NCBI GenBank assembly: GCA_027920525.1
Contig: CP115858.1
Span: 2,418,001 to 2,482,000 of the forward strand
Direction of reading: 5' to 3'
DNA: 64,000 nt
Source of the DNA: Chryseobacterium daecheongense
GTDB lineage: Bacteria > Bacteroidota > Bacteroidia > Flavobacteriales > Weeksellaceae
Shown here one piece after another: positions 1-13,150 of this stretch (within the stretch, counting starts at the first letter, position 1; each line of letters opens with the position of its first letter). A model generated the notes under the pieces. That model made no database searches and had not been told where the DNA came from. It was given only the letters and a program-made list of their open reading frames with translations. A program made the position numbers and the translations under genes.

Positions 1-437
1 ATTATACAAATCTTAATAGATTGAATAAAAAAAAATCTTTTATTCTGGTTTCTGTCTTTGTCGAAGAATAAAAGAGCGCTCTTGTTAAGTTTACTTGAAA
101 GTGAAATTTTTACCACTACTGCCGATGTTATGTAAGGGTAATCAATTTGCCTTTCAACTTTACTAAATATCCCAAAAAGTGAATCATCATATTAAATTTC
201 GAATTCTGGATCAGTTTCTTTTCAAAAAGTCAAATAATTTTTGTTTGTAGCCTTTCCACATATTTTCGGCTTGATGCTAAGGTTTTGCACTTTGCGAAGG
301 CGGATTTACTAAACTTGTCAGATCCACAAAGTTCAACATTTCACTGTATTAGAGGCTCACACTTTCAGAAATGACTTTGGTATTCTCCTTTTTATTAGGT
401 CATTCTATTTCGCTTTTGATAATAAAGTTCGCAAATG
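1..437. other. Non-coding left edge of the window, inside the mobile element
   Basis: I see no convincing gene in this stretch. It lies downstream of the three-gene operon that ends at 438. Two small structures are visible: a perfect 12-base palindrome AAGAGCGCTCTT at 72-83, and an inverted pair ACTTTG (289-294) / CAAAGT (327-332) flanking a 32-base spacer. Neither is followed by a clear T-run for the minus-strand operon, so a terminator is not assigned. Confidence 0.4.
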
Positions 438-1175
438 CTATTGGTTAATTAAAATCAATAATTTTTCTGCCTTCCTTATATCTTCGTTTTGGTCCGGATT
501 TGATTTCTGTTCAATAGAAGCTAAATAAACTGTATCATCAATCTCGTTAAAGTAAACCCTAAGAGCTACTGGTTGATATACTCTTAATTCATAAACAGTA
601 CACTTTTTTGAAACACTTACATCCTTTACTATTTTTGTATCGGGATAAAATCTCGTTGCGAGATTTCTATTGGATGCTTTCTCAAACTCATATTTGATGG
701 ATTCTTGCGCATCAGCAGAAAGAGAAGCATAACTTTTTTCAAAATTCTTAGTGATTACCGAATTGCCAAGAAATGCTATCAAGTGTTCCAAATTTGTTTG
801 ATAAAATTGAATCCAGTTTAAGTATGAGTCTGGACCTATAACTTTTTTGTGGTCTGTTATTGCTTGATTATTAAAATCAATCCCAAGAAAGCCATTAATA
901 TTTCTTTTACAATAATTGTTTGCAGTGATTTCGTCTTGAACTTCAGCATCACAAGGACTTAACTTTGCAAAAAAATTGTATAGATTAAAAATGTCAATGT
1001 CGTGCATATTAGAAAAAATGCTATTAGTAAAATGATGAATTTGATAGCAACTATCATTTCTGAAAAAAATATGCTCTTGCTTTTTTTCAATACTCATTAA
1101 CTGAATAACACCACTTTTGAATATTTCAAAATCATCAGTATTTAACGATTGATTGTTTAAAAAGAAGTCGCTCAT
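438..1175 (-). CDS. Third gene of DUF262/DUF3696 operon; RelE/HigB-like C-terminal domain
   Basis: This is a 245-residue protein that I do not recognise as a whole. Residues 1 to about 150 match nothing I know. From about 190 the pattern (YELRVY, then ALRVYF, then ASIEQKSN, then a final helix rich in K, E and A) resembles the RelE/HigB (Gp49-like) toxin core, in which conserved arginines and a lysine lie on a small beta sheet before a last helix. The start codon overlaps the stop of the upstream ATPase gene by 4 bases, so translation is probably coupled. By context it is the effector or a regulator of the ATPase/DUF262 pair. The RelE-like call is pattern recognition only; the ribonuclease active site cannot be confirmed. 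Confidence 0.6.
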   Translation of the reverse strand: MSDFFLNNQSLNTDDFEIFKSGVIQLMSIEKKQEHIFFRNDSCYQIHHFTNSIFSNMHDIDIFNLYNFFAKLSPCDAEVQDEITANNYCKRNINGFLGIDFNNQAITDHKKVIGPDSYLNWIQFYQTNLEHLIAFLGNSVITKNFEKSYASLSADAQESIKYEFEKASNRNLATRFYPDTKIVKDVSVSKKCTVYELRVYQPVALRVYFNEIDDTVYLASIEQKSNPDQNEDIRKAEKLLILINQ

Positions 1176-2371
1176 TTCTTTTTCAAGTTTAGAAGTTCCA
1201 CATAATCAATCTGTGTTTGGTCAAAAAAGCCTTTAGGCCACTCCAATAATTCACCTTTCTCATTGATATGAATTGGTTTTAGATTTGGTTGTTGTTTAAT
1301 TCCAAGGATTTTATCTTCTTGAAGTTCTTGTTTAGACTTATCTTCTTTGAAAAAATAATTTATAATAACATTCTTATAATTAATTGCTTTTCTGGCAACA
1401 GCTATTTGAATTCCGTTTATAATATGGTCGCTATGTGTTTCGACAATAATTTTAAGTCCAGAATTTGCCATTACTCCCAAAAATTCTCCCATTTTTGATT
1501 GAGCAGATGGGTGAAGATGTGCTTCTGGGTTTTCAATGATCAAGATGCTGTCCTTTTTTGCCAACAAGCAAGAAACAATTATTGGCAAAGAATAACTAAT
1601 ACCGAATCCAGTATTTGTCGGAAAAATACCTTTCCCATTTGAGTATAAATTATCTACTGATATTCTTGCAGTATGTGTTTCGCTATCCTTAACAGGAACA
1701 ATTGTCACTCCGTCAATTATTTTACTCAACCAAGCATTAACGTGATGTTGAAACTTACTCCCCTTTAAAAATTCAGGGTCGTTAAGAATTCTGTTAGGGT
1801 CTATTTTGAATTTACTTTCAATTTCAAGAGAATCCAAATCAGCAATTATTTGAGCAGTAAATTCTCCCTTAAACCCAACATTTGGGTAGTCATAAAACCT
1901 TATTCCTTGATTAATTCGCGGACCTATCCTCTCAGCATTGAGATAATAGAACTCGTGAAACATCAAGGGATTTTGAGGGAATTTAAAATCTTTTTTTAAA
2001 AGTTCGTTTGGTGTAATCCATAACTCATTTAAGTTGTTTGTTGTATATTTTATAACAATACCTTTTTCTGCTTCACTTAAACCAAGTTCAATTTCAGTTT
2101 CTTTGAATTCAGATGGCAAAACATTCAAACTATTACCTAAACCCAAGCAATAAACTTCATTTAGTTCCACATTTAACTTGTTTGTTACATTATATTCAAA
2201 GTGGTCGCCTTTCCATTCGCTACAATGTTCAATTGTTCTTCTTAGCAACAATAAAGCCTGAATAGCTGTGCTTTTGCCATTGCCATTGCCTCCAGCAAAA
2301 ATTGTTAAGTCACTTATTGGAACATCAATATCGTAAAAGCATTTAAAATTTTTTATAGTAAGTGTAATCAT
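1172..2371 (-). CDS. AAA/OLD-like ATPase, DUF3696 family
   Basis: The protein has 399 residues and an SMC/ABC-type ATPase head. It starts with the usual ITIKNFKCF-like beta strand and has a Walker A GGNGNGKST at 27-35. Near 277 lies a Walker B with the ENPEAHLHP signature typical of OLD and RecF-like ATPases, and near 312 the VETHSDHI switch-histidine segment. The C-terminus (GELLEWPKGFFD) is characteristic of DUF3696. Such ATPases often act as sensors or motors in phage-defence operons. Here it sits between a DUF262 gene upstream and a RelE-like gene downstream, overlapping each by 4 bases. No TOPRIM nuclease domain is visible, so any nuclease activity would have to come from a partner. Confidence 0.85.
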   Translation of the reverse strand: MITLTIKNFKCFYDIDVPISDLTIFAGGNGNGKSTAIQALLLLRRTIEHCSEWKGDHFEYNVTNKLNVELNEVYCLGLGNSLNVLPSEFKETEIELGLSEAEKGIVIKYTTNNLNELWITPNELLKKDFKFPQNPLMFHEFYYLNAERIGPRINQGIRFYDYPNVGFKGEFTAQIIADLDSLEIESKFKIDPNRILNDPEFLKGSKFQHHVNAWLSKIIDGVTIVPVKDSETHTARISVDNLYSNGKGIFPTNTGFGISYSLPIIVSCLLAKKDSILIIENPEAHLHPSAQSKMGEFLGVMANSGLKIIVETHSDHIINGIQIAVARKAINYKNVIINYFFKEDKSKQELQEDKILGIKQQPNLKPIHINEKGELLEWPKGFFDQTQIDYVELLNLKKK

Positions 2372-3741
2372 TGTTGATATACTATGTTGTTTTTAAATAA
2401 TTCGTTTAGAACGCCAAAGGTGTAAAGTAAATTGGCTTTACCATTTGTTCCGTATGATAAATAGTAAATTAATTGTTTGTCGTTTTCAATCTTGTCTGCA
2501 AGTAAATTTGTTAATGAATTTGCATTGTTATTATTAGCAATTATATCATTATCATAGTCAGCCAACAAAATGGAACAACATACAAAAAGAGCTTTGTTAA
2601 TTAATTGTTTATGGGAATTTGGTTGAATATCTTTATTCTGAATTTTTCTAAATGCATACTTACTGCCAATAAGATGTTCAGCATTCTTCATTGCATTTGT
2701 AAACTTCTGAATATATCTTTCTAAATGTTGCTGCAAAGTCTTAACATGTTTGTCGGTATATTCATCAAGAACTATATCCATATATCCGCTATAGTCGTCA
2801 ATGTTTTTATTTGGTTCATACAATTGATAAAAGTATAAGAATCTAAGAGCAATTTCTTGGTCTTCCATCCGTGTGCTTTTTATACTGTAATCTGTAGCAG
2901 ATTTAAAATCTTCCAAAGAAGCCATAGTTTTTAAAGATTCTCTTAACCCTTTACCCATCAAGCAGTTCCTTATTTCTTGATTATTGAGAGGTCTTCCACC
3001 TGTATTAATTCTTCTAAAAATATCATACTTAACTTTTGGTGGAGAAGATGGGTCAATTATGTTTGCTGAGATTGAAGTCAAATCAAACCATTTCAGATAT
3101 TTGGTATCAAGTCCAACCTTATTACCTCTCGATTCATAATACCTTCCTTCGCAAGTGTCGTTCAGGTATTGCAGATTTTTCAAAGGGAATTTGTTATCCA
3201 TAAACTCCTTGATAGTTGAAATACGCTGCAAGCCATCAACTACTGAAAGATTGCCTTCATCATCCTCTGCAAAGTAGAACATTGGTAAAGGAATTCTTAA
3301 AAGTATGGATTCAATTAATCTTGATTTTTGGAAATTATTCCAAACTAGATTTCTTTGGAAATCTGGATTAAGGTCTATGCTCTGGTTGTCTATCATTTTA
3401 CTCAAAATGGAAACAGCAATTTTATCAGATCTAACCTTTATCTTATCTGGGTCATAAGGATTAATGTCTGTTGTTTCTGATTCACTGAAGGTATCCGCAC
3501 CAGATTTCTCAACTTCAATTATTTCATAAAGAACTTTGTCAAGTATCTTTTCAATAGTTTCATTATTATCTACAATTCTAACATCTTTCAATAAAACTAA
3601 AAGATTTTGGCCAACCAACTCTATCTCCATCCAAACGAATTTATCATCATCAACTAGTTGATACCTATTTTCGGTATCTTCTTTTTTGATTACCGACAAA
3701 CTAATTATTTCATCGTTTCCTATATTGAATTCTACTATCAT
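2368..3741 (-). CDS. DUF262 (GmrS/ParB-like fold) protein
   Basis: This is a 457-residue protein, first gene of the operon. It carries DUF262 hallmarks: a PDFQRNLVW segment at 126-134, RIPLP at 149-153 and the VDGLQRIST motif at 168-176, a variant of the DGQQR motif of GmrSD-type enzymes. DUF262 has a ParB/Srx-like fold that binds or hydrolyses nucleotides in type IV restriction enzymes such as GmrSD. The DUF1524 HNH nuclease that normally follows is not visible. An extra N-terminal segment of about 100 residues precedes the domain. A -7-like box lies 19 bases upstream. I infer a defence or nucleotide-sensing role together with the downstream ATPase. Confidence 0.85.
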   Translation of the reverse strand: MIVEFNIGNDEIISLSVIKKEDTENRYQLVDDDKFVWMEIELVGQNLLVLLKDVRIVDNNETIEKILDKVLYEIIEVEKSGADTFSESETTDINPYDPDKIKVRSDKIAVSILSKMIDNQSIDLNPDFQRNLVWNNFQKSRLIESILLRIPLPMFYFAEDDEGNLSVVDGLQRISTIKEFMDNKFPLKNLQYLNDTCEGRYYESRGNKVGLDTKYLKWFDLTSISANIIDPSSPPKVKYDIFRRINTGGRPLNNQEIRNCLMGKGLRESLKTMASLEDFKSATDYSIKSTRMEDQEIALRFLYFYQLYEPNKNIDDYSGYMDIVLDEYTDKHVKTLQQHLERYIQKFTNAMKNAEHLIGSKYAFRKIQNKDIQPNSHKQLINKALFVCCSILLADYDNDIIANNNNANSLTNLLADKIENDKQLIYYLSYGTNGKANLLYTFGVLNELFKNNIVYQQ

Positions 3742-3759
3742 ATTGATTATTTGATTTTA

Positions 3760-3767
3760 CAAATTTA
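3760..3767 (-). promoter_or_regulatory. Putative -7 box of the DUF262 operon
   Basis: Read on the minus strand the sequence is TAAATTTG, an exact match to the Bacteroidetes -7 consensus TAnnTTTG, 19 bases before the ATG of the DUF262 gene. No good -33 TTTG was found at the right distance, so this is a moderate call. Confidence 0.4.
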
Positions 3768-3835
3768 TAATTAATTATCGATTGTATAATATTTGGAGAG
3801 ATTTCATAGTGGGACAGCTAAAAAAGTAAATCATA

Positions 3836-4996
3836 TTAATACCTCTTTCCACGTTTTTTCTTTTGAATTGGAGTTTCCTCATTATTATAATTTAGATTTT
3901 CATTTCCAAACCGTAATAGAGATAAAATTCTAACACTATTTTCTGAATCTTTAAAGATCTCATTAAATGCTGAAAAAGGAATATTATTTTCTTTACATAC
4001 TTTTTCTGCAATCTTGCCCATTTCAGAAATTAGAGTTTCTCTATCAGATCTATCAACTGCGGGAAATCTATACCGGCTAAATTTGATTTCCTTTTCAAGC
4101 ACATTCATAACAGCGTCAAGATATTTTTTCTTTTCAGAAGCAAAAATATTTGGCTCAGTTAATAGCGTAGAATATTTATTTTTGAATAATTGAATCTCTT
4201 TATTTAAGCTATTAACCTTTGTACTGAGTTCGCTAATCTGCTTGGACTTAGATTCTAATTCTGTTTTATTTTTTTGAATTATACTTCTGTAACTTCGGAA
4301 TGCTTTTTCATAATTCGCAATTGTTTTGTCAGTCTTAATCTTTTGAAAACCCAAGAAATCATTTTCCTTCACAATCAGCTCCTCTGATTTTGTTGAACTC
4401 ATTTCAGATTTCATTATGTCATACCTTTCTTCCAAAACTTTCAGATCTTCTTGTTTCTGCTGAATTTTAAACTCAATTGCTTCTAATCTTACTCTGGAAC
4501 CTGAAATTCCTCTCTCCATATTCAGGCATTCTGCTGTCAGATCCTGCATCTTTGAATAATGGAAAGATTGGTGTTTTAGTGTTTTACCAGTTTCCAAATC
4601 TTGCCAGTCTGCCACCAAATGAGCGTGATAATTTGGTTTCCATTCTTTCGTGTCTTTATCGGTATGACCTTCGTCTTTATGAATAGCAATTTGAAAAACA
4701 CGAATCTTTAATTCTTCTTCCAGTCTCTTGGCTAAATTTTGAAGTTCCAACATCGTTGTATTTTCTTTGATAACAACAACTGCTTCCCGAACTGACATTG
4801 CATTTTTCTGCAATTTCCTTCCGGACTTTTCTTTACAATACGCTTCGATCTTTTGGATTCGGTCAGCTATTTTCTGCTCCATCCAATATTCATTCTTTGG
4901 TGTCAGATCTTTACGGATGTAATCAAAAGTTTTCTTCCTGAAATTATGAGTTTCAGAATCCGATTTGACAGCTTTAAAATTAATTGAAGTCTTCAT
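3836..4996 (-). CDS. MobV-type relaxase / mobilization protein
   Basis: The protein has 386 residues. The N-terminal half resembles MobV (Mob_Pre) relaxases, which nick one strand at oriT and pilot the DNA during mobilization by a helper conjugation system. Visible landmarks are HKDEGH at 106-111 and the metal-binding NYHAHLVADW at 122-131. The FHYSKMQDL segment that follows is typical of the Bacteroidetes members. Residues from about 165 to 275 form a long charged coiled coil, and the C-terminus is strongly basic. The upstream non-coding region (4997-5275) is the expected place for oriT. No type IV secretion genes are visible, so the element is probably mobilizable, not self-transmissible. 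Confidence 0.85.
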   Translation of the reverse strand: MKTSINFKAVKSDSETHNFRKKTFDYIRKDLTPKNEYWMEQKIADRIQKIEAYCKEKSGRKLQKNAMSVREAVVVIKENTTMLELQNLAKRLEEELKIRVFQIAIHKDEGHTDKDTKEWKPNYHAHLVADWQDLETGKTLKHQSFHYSKMQDLTAECLNMERGISGSRVRLEAIEFKIQQKQEDLKVLEERYDIMKSEMSSTKSEELIVKENDFLGFQKIKTDKTIANYEKAFRSYRSIIQKNKTELESKSKQISELSTKVNSLNKEIQLFKNKYSTLLTEPNIFASEKKKYLDAVMNVLEKEIKFSRYRFPAVDRSDRETLISEMGKIAEKVCKENNIPFSAFNEIFKDSENSVRILSLLRFGNENLNYNNEETPIQKKKRGKRY

Positions 4997-5275: not shown

Positions 5276-6259
5276 TCAACGTTTCATTTTAAAACCATTT
5301 GAGTTTTTAATTTCAAGTTTCTGATTTTTCTGTTCGAGTTTATCAGCTTCAGGAAATTTTTCAGAATGCTTTCCTGATTTAATATCGACATCATTATTTA
5401 TTTGATGTATCAAAAATTCGTTGAGATCTTTATGGTTGGAATAAACTCCGGAATGATCTTTTGATCCCTGAAAAGATTTTATGATCTGAGATTTACACTT
5501 TATTCCCGCAGTATCATTGTCGAGAAACAGATTGATATCAGAGTAGTTTTTCAAATGTTCTATCGACTTATTTAAAAGAGCAATGGAATTCATAACGAGA
5601 ATATCTCCAACGAAAGATTTCTGCATTTCGATAAAAGACAAGGCATCCATAAAGCCTTCAAAAACTGCTACACTTTTGATATTTTCGTCTTGAAAATTTG
5701 ATGTATCCTGTATATTACTATTGAGATTAAGTATTGAAATATCCTTTTTCAACAATGACCCTTTATAAAAAGAATTACGAAGCTCAAAGCCTCCGGATAA
5801 ATTTTCAAAGCCAATTGCATAGAGTTTCTTTTCTCCAACTGTAAATCGCACCTCCTTTATGTAATCATAGATTTTAGGACTTAATCCACGTTCCAGCAAA
5901 TAATTTTTCAGGTTGGGATTTTGGATGTCCATTATTTCATCAATTGCATAATTTGGTTCCGACTTTTTAATGTGTTGTTGCTGATGAAAAGAAGAAAAAT
6001 TCTGCTTTGCTGCCCATTCCAAAACTTCAGAAACCGAAGTATTCAGGTACTTCCTCATAAAGTCGGTGTTATTCCCACCTACACCTTCTGAATGGAGATA
6101 CCAGGCATTAATTCTTTTATCCAATTTGAAAGAGGCTTGGGATTCCGTGGCAAAGGGGTTGAGATACCAAGCTTCTTTTTCATTTTGTTTCGCTGGAAGG
6201 TGTCCGAGAGAAAGGAGGACTTCTTCCAACGATATGCTGTTGAATTTTTTGCAGTTCAT
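5276..6259 (-). CDS. Toprim-domain primase of mobilizable element
   Basis: This is a DnaG-like primase for element replication. I place the start at the ATG encoding MNCKKF, near 6259, giving about 327 residues. A GTG further upstream (6388) is in frame but adds 43 residues that do not look like the family. The N-terminal part has the NPF-x(5)-ASFKLD pattern with a GVGGNNTDF loop, seen in Bacteroidetes primases that resemble CHC2 domains but lack the zinc cysteines. The Toprim core is visible as VAVFEGFMDAL (catalytic Glu) and FLDNDTAG (Asp-x-Asp). It lies between the primase-helicase and the oriT-like region, as in many mobilizable elements of this phylum. Confidence 0.8.
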   Translation of the reverse strand: MNCKKFNSISLEEVLLSLGHLPAKQNEKEAWYLNPFATESQASFKLDKRINAWYLHSEGVGGNNTDFMRKYLNTSVSEVLEWAAKQNFSSFHQQQHIKKSEPNYAIDEIMDIQNPNLKNYLLERGLSPKIYDYIKEVRFTVGEKKLYAIGFENLSGGFELRNSFYKGSLLKKDISILNLNSNIQDTSNFQDENIKSVAVFEGFMDALSFIEMQKSFVGDILVMNSIALLNKSIEHLKNYSDINLFLDNDTAGIKCKSQIIKSFQGSKDHSGVYSNHKDLNEFLIHQINNDVDIKSGKHSEKFPEADKLEQKNQKLEIKNSNGFKMKR

Positions 6260-6527
6260 TTTTGTGATTTTTAATGTTTTTTTAGCAGTAAATAGTATGT
6301 GTTCTGTCAGTTCAGGCGGAAGAGTTTGTTTTTTAATAATTTTTGATGAATTGATGAGAAAGCCATATAAAAAACTGAATAACAACACCTTAAAATATCA
6401 TCAAAGTCTCATCAACTCATCAAAGTGGAAATATTCTTCTCATCATTTTCTTATCAAAAACCAATGTTAAAAAGTTTGATGAGGCTTTTGATGAGATATA
6501 ACTAATTGATTTTATTTTCATTATCAA

Positions 6528-7766
6528 TCAATTCATCATTTCATCAAATTTTTGAAGAATAAAATTCCTTTCTATTGTAAAATACCGTCCTGTTTTATTC
6601 TGTTGGAAAAAACTTAAACCATAATCGAGGTCGTATTTTACATATGCCAAAGAATTACTTTGAGGTTCGAGTTTCCAGTTTTCTTTCAATATTTTCCGTA
6701 CATCATTAACTGTCCAATATTGCTTACTGAACATCTTACTAAGCATATTGAAAATATCCTGAGGAATACAATGGATCTTGCTGTCTTCTGTACTTTCAAA
6801 AAACTCATATAAAAGCTCGATGATTTTCGATTCAAGTTTGTTATTATTTTTCCAAACCAGTTTCTGAAGAGCTTTTGTTCTGATCTGGGATTCTGTGAAC
6901 CACATCCTTGTCTGCTTATGACTGTGGAAAGGTCTTTGAATTAAGTATCGAAGAAAATAAGGGATTTCCTTGTTGAGATTTTTTAGAAATTCGGTGTTTT
7001 CGCTTTTGATTGATTTTACTTTGATAATCCAGAATCTGATCTCATTTTCATCGATCTGAATGAAGTTATCTTCATTATTGGAACAGAGAATGAATTTGCC
7101 AAAGAATTCAACTTCTTCACGGTCTTTTCCCTTTGCTTCCTTTTTGTCTTTGTCAGTAGTAGAAAGATACTTTAAGCGTTCAGTGATTTCTTTTTTATCA
7201 AAGAATACCTCATCAATTGCAACAATCAGCATTGAAGTCCAATCTGAATTGAACTGACTGCTGAATGAGTCTCCTTTGATGTAGGTCATATTTAATCCAA
7301 AAATGGATTTCAGCCATTTGATAAAAGTAGATTTTCCAGTAGATCTTTCTTTACTTACAAGACAAAGAATCGGAAGTATCTGTGTTGGATGTTCAAGCAA
7401 TATCTTTATGTAATCTAAACCTAATTCCAGTTGCTCTCCGAAAATATGTTCCATAAATTTTAGTGAGAAAGGAATTTTACTTTCTAAAGCTTCAGAACTT
7501 ATATTTTCATCAATTGGATGATAAGGAATCTCATTATACATATTGTAGAATCCGTCTATTATCTGCTTATAGTCCAGATGAGAAGGAATACAGCAGAAGC
7601 CATCGTACTTTGAAACTTTTGAAACGTAGATTTTTCCGTGGTCGCTAATAATAGTTTCACGATTCCAACGCACTAAAATTGAAATCTTGTCTCCGGAGAT
7701 TAATGGTTTTTCAATGGTCTTATAATAGGTTGTGCCTACTCTGAGGTATGGAATTTTTTCGCTCAT
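6528..7766 (-). CDS. Primase-helicase family protein (superfamily 3-like ATPase)
   Basis: The protein has 412 residues. It resembles the viral and plasmid D5/DUF5906-type helicases used to open and replicate small mobile elements. A Walker A SKERSTGKS lies at 138-146 and a Walker B IVAIDEVFF follows at 181-189. A later segment, FILCSNNED, fits the sensor motif C of superfamily 3 helicases. The C-terminal 100 residues look like a winged-helix DNA-binding region. It is probably expressed after the small HTH gene upstream (gap of 72 bases) and works with the Toprim primase downstream. Confidence 0.8.
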   Translation of the reverse strand: MSEKIPYLRVGTTYYKTIEKPLISGDKISILVRWNRETIISDHGKIYVSKVSKYDGFCCIPSHLDYKQIIDGFYNMYNEIPYHPIDENISSEALESKIPFSLKFMEHIFGEQLELGLDYIKILLEHPTQILPILCLVSKERSTGKSTFIKWLKSIFGLNMTYIKGDSFSSQFNSDWTSMLIVAIDEVFFDKKEITERLKYLSTTDKDKKEAKGKDREEVEFFGKFILCSNNEDNFIQIDENEIRFWIIKVKSIKSENTEFLKNLNKEIPYFLRYLIQRPFHSHKQTRMWFTESQIRTKALQKLVWKNNNKLESKIIELLYEFFESTEDSKIHCIPQDIFNMLSKMFSKQYWTVNDVRKILKENWKLEPQSNSLAYVKYDLDYGLSFFQQNKTGRYFTIERNFILQKFDEMMN

Positions 7767-7838: not shown

Positions 7839-8117
7839 CTATCTTCTGTACTTAAGCGATTTGACTTCGTTTAAAGCATCCATCAGATCAAAATGGTTGA
7901 CCCTGTAGAATCTTCCAATTTGTTCTGCTTTAATATTACCTTTCAAAATATGTGAGCGTACTGTCTGGTAATCAAGTTTAAGAATTTCTGAACACTCTTT
8001 AATAGAATACAGTTTCTTTTTCAACTCAATTTCAGGTTCTTTTTTGAGAGAATAGAGTAAGTCTTTTACTTCTCCTAATTCGTCGAGAATGGTTTGGAAT
8101 GGATTTGTTGTCTGCAT
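7839..8117 (-). CDS. Small helix-turn-helix protein, excisionase-like
   Basis: The 92-residue product has a C-terminal MerR/HTH_17-type domain from about residue 35 (LYSIKECSEILKLDYQTVR followed by a short wing, QIGRFYRV). Proteins of this size beside a primase-helicase in Bacteroidetes elements act as excisionases or as regulators of replication and mobilization genes; which applies here is inference. A perfect inverted repeat lies about 50 bases upstream and could be its operator. Confidence 0.8.
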   Translation of the reverse strand: MQTTNPFQTILDELGEVKDLLYSLKKEPEIELKKKLYSIKECSEILKLDYQTVRSHILKGNIKAEQIGRFYRVNHFDLMDALNEVKSLKYRR

Positions 8118-8358: not shown

Positions 8359-10842
8359 TTAATTAATATCTGAACCCGCCATTTTGCCAAACTGATGTTG
8401 TGCATTCGTTGTTTTTTTGTTAATGTATTTTGTCAGTTTGTTATATATCATTTTCTTGATGTAATTTTCCATATAGTCAAAGTCAGGTTGTCCTTTTTTG
8501 TTTATAGGCAATACTATTTTTTCACGTCTTATTCTTGGGTCATTTATCTCACGATTGAAACTATATTTTTCACTTAATCGCTTGGTTACACTTGCGATAA
8601 AAAGGTAAATAAATTCATTGAAATTATCGTTTTGAAGTTTTGTCACGTGGTCGCTGGCAACAAAAGAAAAGGGCTGATAAAATGTTGCTCCTACACTTCC
8701 ACTGTTTGCGATAGAAAGACAATTGCTGAAAATTCTAACTTTTTCAGTGTTACTTACAAAACCGTCAATTCCATTGTTTAAAGCTGATGAAGACACATAG
8801 GGAATTGTACCTTTAATATGGTCGTCTTTTTTAAGTCGTTTACCTCTTTGAATTTCTGTAAAAATGTCCTTTAAATAAAATTCACTCCATTCTTTTAGTT
8901 CAAGCTGCTCAACTTCTTTAAATTCGTGGATTATTTCTGTTTTTATGGCTTCAAATAAGTATTCTCTGCCTTGCAAAATCATATTAAATTCAAAAGTGAA
9001 GTAGTCAGCAACAGTTTTTTCAAACTCTTCTTCAATTGGCGTTTCATCATTGAAATAGTAAAATGAATGCAACCATTCGTCTTCTGCTTCAATAGTTGAT
9101 TTAACACAAAAACTTGTTTCTGCTTCTAAGCGGTCAAACCATACATCAAGTAAATGTTGCTTTTTATCTCTTGCTTCAATAGTTTCTATAAGTCCACGAT
9201 GTTTTTGCACTTCAAAACCATCATTTTCAAAATTGATAAATTTTACCTTTTTATCTTTGTAATGTGGAACTCCAGCCGTAAATACTGCAATACAAGGATT
9301 AGTTCCAACGCCATAAAATGAATTTTTGTTAAGTGTGATGACACCTTCCAAAGTATGAAATTTTAATATATTATCTTTAATAGCTTGTTCTTCTTTGGTT
9401 TTACCATTCATCGATGATTGTGGTACAATAACAACCACTTTTGCATCTTGAACAACAGAATTAAGTAAATGTTCAGTAAAGTTAATTTCGTATAGACTTG
9501 GATTACTTTTACTACCCATAGAATAGGGTGGATTCATCATACCAACTGTACATCCTTTTTCTTGTAATAATGCCGGATTAAATTTTAAAAAGTCTTCTTG
9601 TTCCAAATTGCTTTTACCATCTCCACGCAAAATCATATTTGTTGTTGCAATGGTAAACATATAAGGTTGCAATTCTAAACCGTGCAATTGATTTTTTCTA
9701 ATGTTTCTTTGTGTTTCGGGATTGTCAGTTTTTTGCAGCATATCGTGCATAGCAGCAATTAAAAATCCTGCTGTTCCACAGCAAGGGTCTAAGACAGAAT
9801 CAGTAGGTTTTAATTCTACCAAATCACAAAATAATTCGGTAACGTGTTTTGGTGTTAAAACAATTCCTAATGATTGTCCGTCACCACCAGAATAGGACAT
9901 AAATTCTCCATAAAATCTTCCTAAGTAATCTTCGGCAGAATATATGTATTTTATGTTTTTATAAATATTTTCATAAAGAAACTCTGTAAAATGTTTTAAG
10001 GGTGTTTTTTTTAAAAACTCATTTACTTCATTTATTGCTTTTGTGTCTTTAATGACCAAAAATTGGCTTAATAATTTGTCTTTTTTTACTTGTGGAGAAA
10101 CATTTGCTCTACGCAAGTTTTTTTCAATTGCTTCATAAATTTTTTCACCATCTGTATTTGTTTCATCGCCAATTAAACTGTCAATACTGAAACCTTTATG
10201 TTCCATTTCACGCAAAGCCAACAAAATTCCAGAAACAATTAGCGGTTTGTCTTTGTCTTGAATACTTCCGTAATTTCTTAAATCTTCGTGAAGATTTTTT
10301 GCATCCTTGAGGATTTCTTCTGTTGTTTTGTCTTCGGGTGTTTCCTCTTTTAGAATATTCTTTGTGTAGTATTCTTCAATATTTTTTTCGTTGAAAAGTG
10401 TAAACGTTTCAACATCTTCAAGTTCTTTATAGCCTCCTCTTTCATCAATAAAAATTGGTGTTATTTTGTGTCGCTTTTCGTTGCCTGATACACCAAAAAC
10501 AATGAACTTTTTATAGTTTGTATTTTTAGCTAAATGTTTACCATAAAATAAAGCACCATTAACAGCATAATTTTTTACACTTGTTATTTCGCTACATATT
10601 AAATCTTTATCATTTCTTTTTATGTGAAGTGAAACATCTGCTTTGTTTTCAATAATCAAAACGAAGTCTTTAACAATTCCGCTATATTCAGGAAAGCCTA
10701 CTTTGCCTGTTCCAGCTTTTGATGCTGATTTTAAAGCGTTGTCAATGTCTTTTATGTTGCTTCCTTGTGGATGTAAATCAACATTTGCTTCTTTTAGCAA
10801 TTCGTAAACCCACAAATCTGTCAATATTTCTTTCTTCGCCAT
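8359..10842 (-). CDS. Single-chain type IIG-like restriction-modification enzyme
   Basis: This 827-residue protein joins three functions. Residues 1 to about 170 look like a PD-(D/E)xK nuclease domain, with D59 and the IIENKAD motif giving E65 and K67. The middle is a gamma-class N6-adenine methyltransferase with the SAM-binding DPCCGTAGF near 348 and the catalytic NPPY near 434. From about 650 the EWSEFYLKDIF, IPYVSSSAL and SGSVG patterns match one target recognition domain of type I HsdS kind. This arrangement fits BcgI-like or other type IIG enzymes that cut and methylate with one chain. No separate HsdS or HsdR gene lies beside it. The specificity cannot be read from sequence. Confidence 0.85.
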   Translation of the reverse strand: MAKKEILTDLWVYELLKEANVDLHPQGSNIKDIDNALKSASKAGTGKVGFPEYSGIVKDFVLIIENKADVSLHIKRNDKDLICSEITSVKNYAVNGALFYGKHLAKNTNYKKFIVFGVSGNEKRHKITPIFIDERGGYKELEDVETFTLFNEKNIEEYYTKNILKEETPEDKTTEEILKDAKNLHEDLRNYGSIQDKDKPLIVSGILLALREMEHKGFSIDSLIGDETNTDGEKIYEAIEKNLRRANVSPQVKKDKLLSQFLVIKDTKAINEVNEFLKKTPLKHFTEFLYENIYKNIKYIYSAEDYLGRFYGEFMSYSGGDGQSLGIVLTPKHVTELFCDLVELKPTDSVLDPCCGTAGFLIAAMHDMLQKTDNPETQRNIRKNQLHGLELQPYMFTIATTNMILRGDGKSNLEQEDFLKFNPALLQEKGCTVGMMNPPYSMGSKSNPSLYEINFTEHLLNSVVQDAKVVVIVPQSSMNGKTKEEQAIKDNILKFHTLEGVITLNKNSFYGVGTNPCIAVFTAGVPHYKDKKVKFINFENDGFEVQKHRGLIETIEARDKKQHLLDVWFDRLEAETSFCVKSTIEAEDEWLHSFYYFNDETPIEEEFEKTVADYFTFEFNMILQGREYLFEAIKTEIIHEFKEVEQLELKEWSEFYLKDIFTEIQRGKRLKKDDHIKGTIPYVSSSALNNGIDGFVSNTEKVRIFSNCLSIANSGSVGATFYQPFSFVASDHVTKLQNDNFNEFIYLFIASVTKRLSEKYSFNREINDPRIRREKIVLPINKKGQPDFDYMENYIKKMIYNKLTKYINKKTTNAQHQFGKMAGSDIN

Positions 10843-11008: not shown

Positions 11009-11737
11009 TTATACATTAAGCAACTTGGATAATTCTTGGAAGATATTTTCTTCAAAATCATTTGGCTTAACAATTATTGCTCTTGAAAATGTTCCTTTGT
11101 CAAAATTGGTATTATATTCATTTTCCATAGCCTCGATTATTGTAGTATCCTGAAAATCTGGATTGATTATGTGGTTGTCTTTTAGAAAACGGTGAATTCT
11201 TATAAAGGAAGATTTCTGATCTACCAGCAGGTTGTGATTTTCATCAATGAATTTTTTATCTTTTAAAAAGTTGAGAAAAATTTTTGAACTGTTATTACCG
11301 ATCATAATATCTGATAAACGAATTTCCCTATCTGTTTTGCTGTCTAAAGCAAAATATAGAAATAGTGTAGTTTCGGCACCATTTAAAAAATTGCTCTGCA
11401 ATTTCATCAGATTGCTTGAAGTTAGCAGGCTGTTTGATTCTTTTTTATATTGGTCCAAACAGTATTGGATCTTTTCTTCAAAATTGTGATTTCTTGATTC
11501 ATTAATATCTTTGAAATGAAAACTGAAGAAATTGTCTAACTTTTCATATCTAATCAAAAATTCATTTCTCAACTTTTCATCGAGAACGATTCTAGAGGAT
11601 TTCTGCTTGGCTTTTTCAATTCTACTTTGCAAACGTTCTTGAATTTTTTGCCTTCTAATCAGGAAATAAATCATCATTGGATAGCCTATAAATTCTTCCC
11701 AAAAATTCCAACGTCCGTAAAGTTTTTTTTGATCCAT
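11009..11737 (-). CDS. Hypothetical protein next to integrase
   Basis: I do not recognise this 242-residue protein. Residues 15-28 form a short hydrophobic patch (FIGYPMMIYFLIRR) followed by a highly charged helix; whether it spans the membrane is unclear. The rest is predicted to be mostly helical with many Lys, Asp and Glu residues and no catalytic motif I can name. It starts 15 bases after the integrase stop on the same strand, so it is probably co-transcribed with the integrase and belongs to the recombination or maintenance functions of the element. Confidence 0.65.
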   Translation of the reverse strand: MDQKKLYGRWNFWEEFIGYPMMIYFLIRRQKIQERLQSRIEKAKQKSSRIVLDEKLRNEFLIRYEKLDNFFSFHFKDINESRNHNFEEKIQYCLDQYKKESNSLLTSSNLMKLQSNFLNGAETTLFLYFALDSKTDREIRLSDIMIGNNSSKIFLNFLKDKKFIDENHNLLVDQKSSFIRIHRFLKDNHIINPDFQDTTIIEAMENEYNTNFDKGTFSRAIIVKPNDFEENIFQELSKLLNV

Positions 11738-11752: not shown

Positions 11753-12994
11753 TTATTTAAAAACTTCATTCATATAATTGATCTTATCATCCTCACTTGG
11801 TCTGTAGTAAGCATTAAAGACTTCTAAGCTAGTGTGACCAGTGTAACTCATAATTACTTTATCCGGAACTCGTTTGTTTTTCATTATGGTGATGAAACTT
11901 CTTCTAGCAGTATGTGAGGAAATTCTTGTCCAAAACTCAGCTTTTTGATCTACCAACTCATCACCATACTTCATAGTCTTCTTTATTTCATCAGTAAATT
12001 CCAGTTTTTTAAAAACCTCTTTGATATATTCATTCATCTTCTGATTTGTAATACTAGGCAGGTTATAATCATACTTTTCGAGTATTGATTTAGAAATACT
12101 GTTTAAAGGAATTGCTAAGTTTTTAGATTTACTTTTTAAATCGATAACTCTTATGAAATTACCATCAAGATCACTTTTTGAAATCGTGCTGTAATTGCCA
12201 AACCTCATCCCTGTAGTACATCCAAAAACAAAAAGGTCACGTACCCTCTCCAATCTTTTGTTATCACTGAAGTCATAATTGTAAATAAATTCGACTTGTT
12301 CGTAATTTAAAGCTATTTCATCAGTTGTAAATTTCGCAGGTTTTTTGAATGTAATAAAATTGTTATTGTATGTATATTTTTTATTGAGAGCCCAAAGAAG
12401 AAAAGTTTTGAGCAGACCGGCATTTCTATGTAATGTATTTGCAGAATGCTTTTTTTCTTCAATACAATACTTTAAAAACCTATTGTAAAGTTTATCATCA
12501 AATTTTCCCAGACTGATCTTAACTTTACAATTGCTCTCAAAATCTTCGAGTAGATTCTTATTGCATTTGTAACGCTTTAGCGTTGAGTTTGAAATCGAAT
12601 TACCAGTATAGTCATTTTCCTTCTCATCTAAAAACTCCTGGTAAATTCTAAAGAAATCGCTTTTAACAGTAATTTTTTTGAACTTTTCATCGAATCTTTG
12701 TTTAAGAATATCGACTGTAAGTTCTTCATTGATGTTCTTATATCGATTAACAATCTCTGTAAAGAAACTGCTGTAGCGATCTAATTGCATCTTGACGCTT
12801 CGATGAATTTCTGCCCTTTTACTCCTTCCGTTTAGGTCATTTGGTTGTCTGCCTTCAAAATCCCACTCGCTTGGTTTTATTTTCTCACCCGTAGAATAGA
12901 TGAAATTCTTATTTTCGTTGTTGAAAAAAGAACGGAAATAAATTAGAGATTCCTTTGTCCCATTGGGTTGCTTAAGTTTAAAAGTGTAATTCAT
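11753..12994 (-). CDS. Tyrosine recombinase / integrase of the mobile element
   Basis: The protein has 413 residues and the Bacteroidetes integrase layout: an arm-binding N-terminus (SEWDFEGRQP), a SAM-like core-binding domain from about 140, and a catalytic domain from about 215. Catalytic residues are visible: Arg in CTTGMRFGN, Lys in the KSKSKNLAIPL hairpin, HTARRS, then GHTSLEVFNAYY with His387 and Tyr396 or Tyr397. It catalyses integration and excision through the attachment site. The gene lies at the element's right end and is read away from the att remnant. Its promoter is recognisable at 13060-13092. Confidence 0.9.
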   Translation of the reverse strand: MNYTFKLKQPNGTKESLIYFRSFFNNENKNFIYSTGEKIKPSEWDFEGRQPNDLNGRSKRAEIHRSVKMQLDRYSSFFTEIVNRYKNINEELTVDILKQRFDEKFKKITVKSDFFRIYQEFLDEKENDYTGNSISNSTLKRYKCNKNLLEDFESNCKVKISLGKFDDKLYNRFLKYCIEEKKHSANTLHRNAGLLKTFLLWALNKKYTYNNNFITFKKPAKFTTDEIALNYEQVEFIYNYDFSDNKRLERVRDLFVFGCTTGMRFGNYSTISKSDLDGNFIRVIDLKSKSKNLAIPLNSISKSILEKYDYNLPSITNQKMNEYIKEVFKKLEFTDEIKKTMKYGDELVDQKAEFWTRISSHTARRSFITIMKNKRVPDKVIMSYTGHTSLEVFNAYYRPSEDDKINYMNEVFK

Positions 12995-13120: not shown

Positions 13121-13150
13121 AACAGGTTCGAAAACCTCCAACTCCACTTA
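13121..13150 (+). other. Attachment-site remnant resembling the 3' end of a tRNA or tmRNA
   Basis: The segment contains GGTTCGAAA, a T-loop-like sequence, then CCTCCAACTCCA, which looks like the 3' half of an acceptor stem with its discriminator base. No 5' half of a tRNA precedes it, so it is not a complete gene. It sits between the integrase promoter and a terminator hairpin, as expected of the att copy left when an element inserts into a tRNA or ssrA gene. The CAACTCC stem would pair with GGAGTTG, which is compatible with ssrA, but the T-stem does not pair properly with the local upstream sequence. The intact gene should lie beyond the left edge. Confidence 0.45.

Follow-up and report, generated by a model that had tools for sequence, protein, structure and literature searches.

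Within a 64,000-nucleotide stretch of Chryseobacterium daecheongense DNA (contig CP115858.1, positions 2,418,001 to 2,482,000; the whole stretch is referred to as the window), three overlapping genes almost certainly form a Menshen (NsnA-NsnB-NsnC) anti-phage system, a kind of system already in print, as judged from the encoded proteins. Our explanation as a whole, which we regard as probable, is that this Menshen operon has a RelE-like effector, NsnC, that is silenced by NsnA/NsnB until infection. All three genes lie on the minus strand and, as a preliminary description of this DNA had pointed out, the open reading frames (ORFs) overlap by 4 bases at each junction, at 2368-2371 (nsnA/nsnB) and at 1172-1175 (nsnB/nsnC).

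2368..3741, minus strand: nsnA, DUF262 (GmrSD_N, ParB-like NTPase) protein of 457 amino acids (aa) with a VDGLQR motif
1172..2371, minus strand: nsnB, OLD/SMC-type ABC ATPase with DUF3696, 399 aa
438..1175, minus strand: nsnC, probable effector of 245 aa with two domains

Identity and conservation of the operon

The assignment was based on the single-protein PADLOC models for NsnA, NsnB and NsnC together with gene order. NsnA matched PDLC03877 (2.8e-108, residues 74-452), NsnB matched PDLC03878 (1.7e-100) and NsnC matched PDLC03897 (2.3e-46; its residues 17-240 align with positions 85-291 of the 298-position model), and the genes form one operon in the order nsnA-nsnB-nsnC. The window operon thus shares with Menshen all three proteins and their order. 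It differs in that the PADLOC matches leave out 16 residues at the start of NsnC and 73 at the start of NsnA, NsnC meeting its model from position 85, and in that this copy sits on an element at the ssrA gene. NsnA, NsnB and NsnC are what we take to be the products of the Menshen genes. The preliminary description had proposed a phage-defence operon, in agreement with the family membership of all three proteins. It could name no defence system for the combination, and had regarded a match to an already named system as speaking against its proposal; all three proteins matched Menshen models, and an unnamed system was therefore rejected. The naming also agrees with the gene description in PMC10952713, where Menshen consists of a DUF262 gene and a predicted OLD nuclease and where protection against phage is reported.

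The earlier DUF262 and DUF3696 ATPase identities were confirmed. GmrSD_N (DUF262, PF03235, 1.5e-24) was the sole Pfam family found in NsnA, while NsnB matched AAA_15 (9.4e-26), AAA_21 and DUF3696 (2.5e-09), among others, and contains the Walker A motif GGNGNGKST, the Walker B motif ILIIENPEAHLHP and ETHSDH. These NTPase motifs were conserved, DG(L/R)QR in 28/28 NsnA and Walker A in 29/29 NsnB proteins, window copy included. Pfam searches at E <= 1 gave neither a DUF1524 nuclease domain in NsnA nor a Toprim domain in NsnB, and NsnA matched no PDB sequence at E <= 1. As no Toprim match was obtained, the term OLD nuclease seems too strong for the window copy. Type IV restriction of the GmrSD kind was rejected because the DUF262 protein had no DUF1524 match. 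NsnB also matched the PARIS AriA model (PADLOC, 3.5e-27); PARIS was rejected because no AriB-type Toprim match was found and the third gene had no Pfam match and only NsnC matches in PADLOC. PARIS (AriA-AriB) resembles the window operon in pairing an ABC ATPase with a translation-stopping toxin, but AriB is a Toprim nuclease, whereas the window operon has a RelE-like protein and a DUF262 protein. The lack of both nuclease domain matches, and the position of the variable toxin-like part in the third gene, also argue against NsnA and NsnB being themselves the nuclease effector, as in GmrSD and OLD enzymes, with NsnC as an accessory, a possibility that we consider highly improbable.

Outside the window genome 28 loci were read, 26 from genomes of the same phylum and two from named records. 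They comprise these two records, 13/13 loci of one set, 11/14 of a second and 2/3 outside loci of a third; three second or third copies and one match at 8.8e-4 were left out. NsnA adjoins NsnB in 27 of the 28 loci, the exception being L046, which is without NsnA. Downstream of NsnB, 26 loci have an intact third gene (245-347 aa) in the same orientation; L036 and L046 show only short ORFs at this position. The three-gene order is thus conserved across genomes, as put forward earlier, and the recurrence of the same genes in the same order places the set beyond chance. A Menshen system of this kind is rare: NsnC was found in 4/295 genomes of the class, and NsnB, at 1e-30, in 14/385 and 12/395 genomes of two sets, the window genome being included in each count. 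No relative of NsnB or NsnC was confirmed among viral contigs, and NsnC had none among plasmids and phages at 1e-5.

NsnC as a probable effector

NsnC has an N-terminal domain (residues ~1-133) and a C-terminal domain (~134-245), the latter described earlier as RelE/HigB-like. A fold search with the C-terminal half of the predicted NsnC model as query returned a RelE/HigB-like fold. The domain is thus predicted to belong to the RelE fold, and the earlier suggestion holds at the level of predicted structure. By sequence, NsnC had no Pfam match at E <= 1 and matched the RelE/ParE model TIGR02683 below threshold (E 0.0053, 17.1 bits, cut-off 62.85); the NsnC profile gave a single match among PDB sequences, at E 0.16, which was not a RelE chain. 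The alignment of the C-terminal domain contains invariant R, K and E residues, which are candidates only for a catalytic role.

To compare the third proteins we aligned 26 of them from relatives and NsnC of the window all against all, and two exchangeable halves were found. The window-type C-terminal half occurs with the same N-terminal type in L002, L003, L035 and L037 and on another N-terminal type in L048 and L049; 27 of 111 protein-database matches (P0085-P0111) align only from residue 91-144 of NsnC onward. In L039 and L073 the C-terminal half is YoeB (Pfam), the third protein of L040 gave a weak colicin-type 'Cytotoxic' match (0.032, below cut-off), and the C-terminal halves of several others had no credible Pfam match. 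All ten third proteins scanned matched PADLOC NsnC models, 25 different models altogether; an NsnC with exchangeable halves, covered by at least these 25 models, is a feature shared with Menshen. Judging by these comparisons, C-terminal halves are exchanged here as in effectors that bear a toxin, and this exchange may be the subject of Li et al. 2025.

Family membership, conserved order, NTPase motifs, the predicted C-terminal fold of NsnC and the exchange of that half were all computed. The preliminary description had suggested, as an interpretation, that the DUF262 protein and the ATPase sense infection and the third protein kills; with its RelE/HigB-type C-terminal half, the third protein now appears likely to be the toxic effector. 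In the mechanism that we propose, the ABC ATPase NsnB would keep NsnC silent within an NsnA/NsnB complex. Infection would be sensed by the complex or by NsnA itself, whose DUF262 domain would bind NTP and perhaps also DNA, and NsnC would then be set free or switched on. Its RelE-like domain would then cut mRNA on ribosomes, so that translation and infection stop. That RelE-type NsnC is a translation-blocking effector held by NsnB/NsnA seems to us rather likely.

Cami1 (CARF-RelE) is similarly an immune effector with a RelE nuclease joined to a regulatory domain, but it is activated by cyclic oligoadenylate via CARF, and no CARF match was found for the window operon in the families searched. 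HigB/RelE toxins share the predicted fold of the C-terminal domain; NsnC differs from them in being fused to an N-terminal domain of ~133 residues, and in that no HigA/RelB-type antitoxin was seen adjoining it, the downstream 86-aa ORF being without Pfam match. A RelE-like toxin domain encoded on an integrative element would also suit an operon that acts mainly to stabilise its mobile element in the manner of a toxin-antitoxin pair, NsnA/NsnB taking the part of the antitoxin. That no antitoxin gene of these types was seen beside it speaks against such a role, as do the location of the nearest relatives read in restriction-modification (R-M) operons and the protection against phage reported for Menshen in PMC10952713, and we judge it very unlikely.

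Nesting in R-M loci

In six of the 28 loci the operon is nested in a type I system, with hsdS on one side and hsdR on the other. These are L002 and L003, whose DNA matches the window at 85% identity (445-3744) and 80% identity (403-3779), respectively, and L035, L037, L041 and L067, sometimes with extra small genes between. Among the seven loci with NsnB at least 43% identical, five are nested in this way, the others being L036, where the contig ends ~1 kb past NsnB, and L066. Part of the Hsd genes were named via BLAST to Pfam-scanned Hsd genes; in L037 hsdM and hsdR are each split into two ORFs. Four more loci have an R-M gene directly upstream of nsnA on the same strand (of Eco57I type in both L068 and L075, for a C5 methylase in L074 and for LlaJI in L049).

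No R-M neighbour was found in 18/28 loci, eight by Pfam scan of the nearby upstream gene and ten by BLAST only, with 12 type I queries. From 70 matching plasmid records 12 were opened for DUF262-ATPase-third gene triads, two being without triad and one without annotation; none of the nine annotated triads had an R-M gene annotated beside it, in annotation that is incomplete and with third genes not compared with NsnC. As R-M neighbours are not general in these loci and plasmids, we concluded that nesting marks the nearest branch of the window operon and not the whole system. Among the matches listed in literature searches on Menshen, no paper on its nesting in R-M was found; RelE-type NsnC and the nesting may already be described by Li et al. 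2025. On an Acinetobacter plasmid (L121, NZ_CP048661.1) a triad lies, by annotation, near BREX genes and a lipid A phosphoethanolamine transferase.

The nesting raises the question whether this branch guards type I R-M, the complex staying silent while the enzyme works and NsnC being unleashed once a phage anti-restriction protein disables that enzyme, in the way of PrrC or PARIS. Besides the nested loci and the upstream R-M genes, PrrC offers an analogy: according to PMC2610378 a linked type I R-M enzyme keeps it silent until an anti-restriction factor of a phage activates it. It is a toxin module tied to type I R-M, as in the near relatives of the window operon. PrrC differs in being a tRNase, and the window copy is not nested, lying outside any type I R-M operon. 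Further points against a guard are the 18 loci and nine plasmid triads without R-M beside them, and the ordinary cargo that hsd operons also gather, such as the GIY-YIG and DUF6998 genes inside that of L035. We regard the guard function as unlikely. It is also doubtful that the branch between hsdS and hsdR releases a RelE-like mRNase on blocked restriction and that the window copy is this guard, moved as an exact three-gene cassette to a mobile defence island. We prefer a Menshen operon with a RelE-like effector silenced by NsnA/NsnB.

The carrier element and its neighbourhood

Judging from gene content, a mobile island carries this Menshen copy together with further defence genes, those of a type IIG enzyme and of Lamassu. 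Beyond the operon the window contains the following features of the island:

3836..4996, minus strand: putative MobA/VirD2-type relaxase (PF03432 18.9 bits, below the cut-off of 24.6)
5276..6388, minus strand: Toprim primase (Pfam)
6528..7766, minus strand: DUF5906/VapE-like helicase (Pfam), with 90.5% identity to its counterpart in a relative element (L051)
7839..8117, minus strand: HTH_17 excisionase-like protein (Pfam)
8359..10842, minus strand: type IIG restriction enzyme/methyltransferase (fused M and S), cargo (Pfam; PDLC03602 2.5e-161)
11753..12994, minus strand: tyrosine integrase (Pfam)
13135..13147, plus strand: right attachment copy, equal to the final 13 bases of ssrA, the tmRNA gene; longer match 21/23 bases

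The end of ssrA (L050:3798-3810) is thus repeated beside the integrase, and the repeats delimit an element of ~22.35 kb (G000:C1:2408797-2431147). The type IIG gene agrees with the R-M enzyme reported earlier on the element; of the relaxase reported beside the operon, the gene is present and its family match is weak. A sister integrase in another genome (G667, L051) is 79% identical, and the two use different RNA gene ends, that of a tRNA-Ser gene there and that of ssrA here. Empty sites were found in 3/6 relatives, in which DNA known from window 15.9 or 19.8 kb onward begins 0.26, 0.5 and 0.7 kb beyond ssrA, with no element in between; in the remaining three the fetched stretch beyond ssrA had no window match. 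With the right-flank gene as anchor the left flank was recovered at 0/10 loci, because this gene is not beside ssrA in the relatives.

Beside the integrase, a 242-aa gene (11009-11737) is 82% identical in the sister element, and its protein had no credible match in Pfam, PADLOC or NCBIfam. Left of the window the same element carries a four-gene Lamassu (L050:3936-9936; LmuB 4.3e-238, LmuC 1e-30) with two LmuA-type effectors, one trypsin-like (7.4e-80) and one of metallo-beta-lactamase fold (9.3e-117). A triad near an annotated ABC-three-component system on a Klebsiella plasmid (L126, NZ_LR890179.1) resembles this pairing of Menshen and Lamassu.

In a region on the left of the window that ends ~40 bases before it (L050:10909-12962, G000:C1:2415908-2417961) a sigma-70-like gene adjoins a Cas12f/TnpB-like gene (PADLOC Cas12f, 1.6e-51). 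The Cas12f-like protein breaks off 20 positions into a weak match to the TNB domain (E 0.08; 60 positions in full), so that the last RuvC part seems to be missing. An RNA-like element of ~83 bases follows the gene, and Rfam gave no match on L050:12600-13600. The protein was found in 9/59 relatives searched, own included and all of one genus, with the sigma gene beside it in 9/9 outside copies fetched; the RNA-like element is present in 10/10 copies, own included, with a double change in only 1 of 27 predicted pairs. The pair resembles a nuclease-dead Cas12f that works with a dedicated sigma factor, and it may serve RNA-guided transcription, a subject of recent work of which none was among the papers listed in a literature search.

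The match to Menshen closes the question of the identity of the operon. Reading one NsnC type as a RelE/HigB fold, on the basis of a predicted structure, leads to the concrete prediction that NsnC would arrest translation via ribosome-dependent mRNA cleavage, and the nesting in type I R-M suggests that the trigger may be sought among phage anti-restriction proteins.
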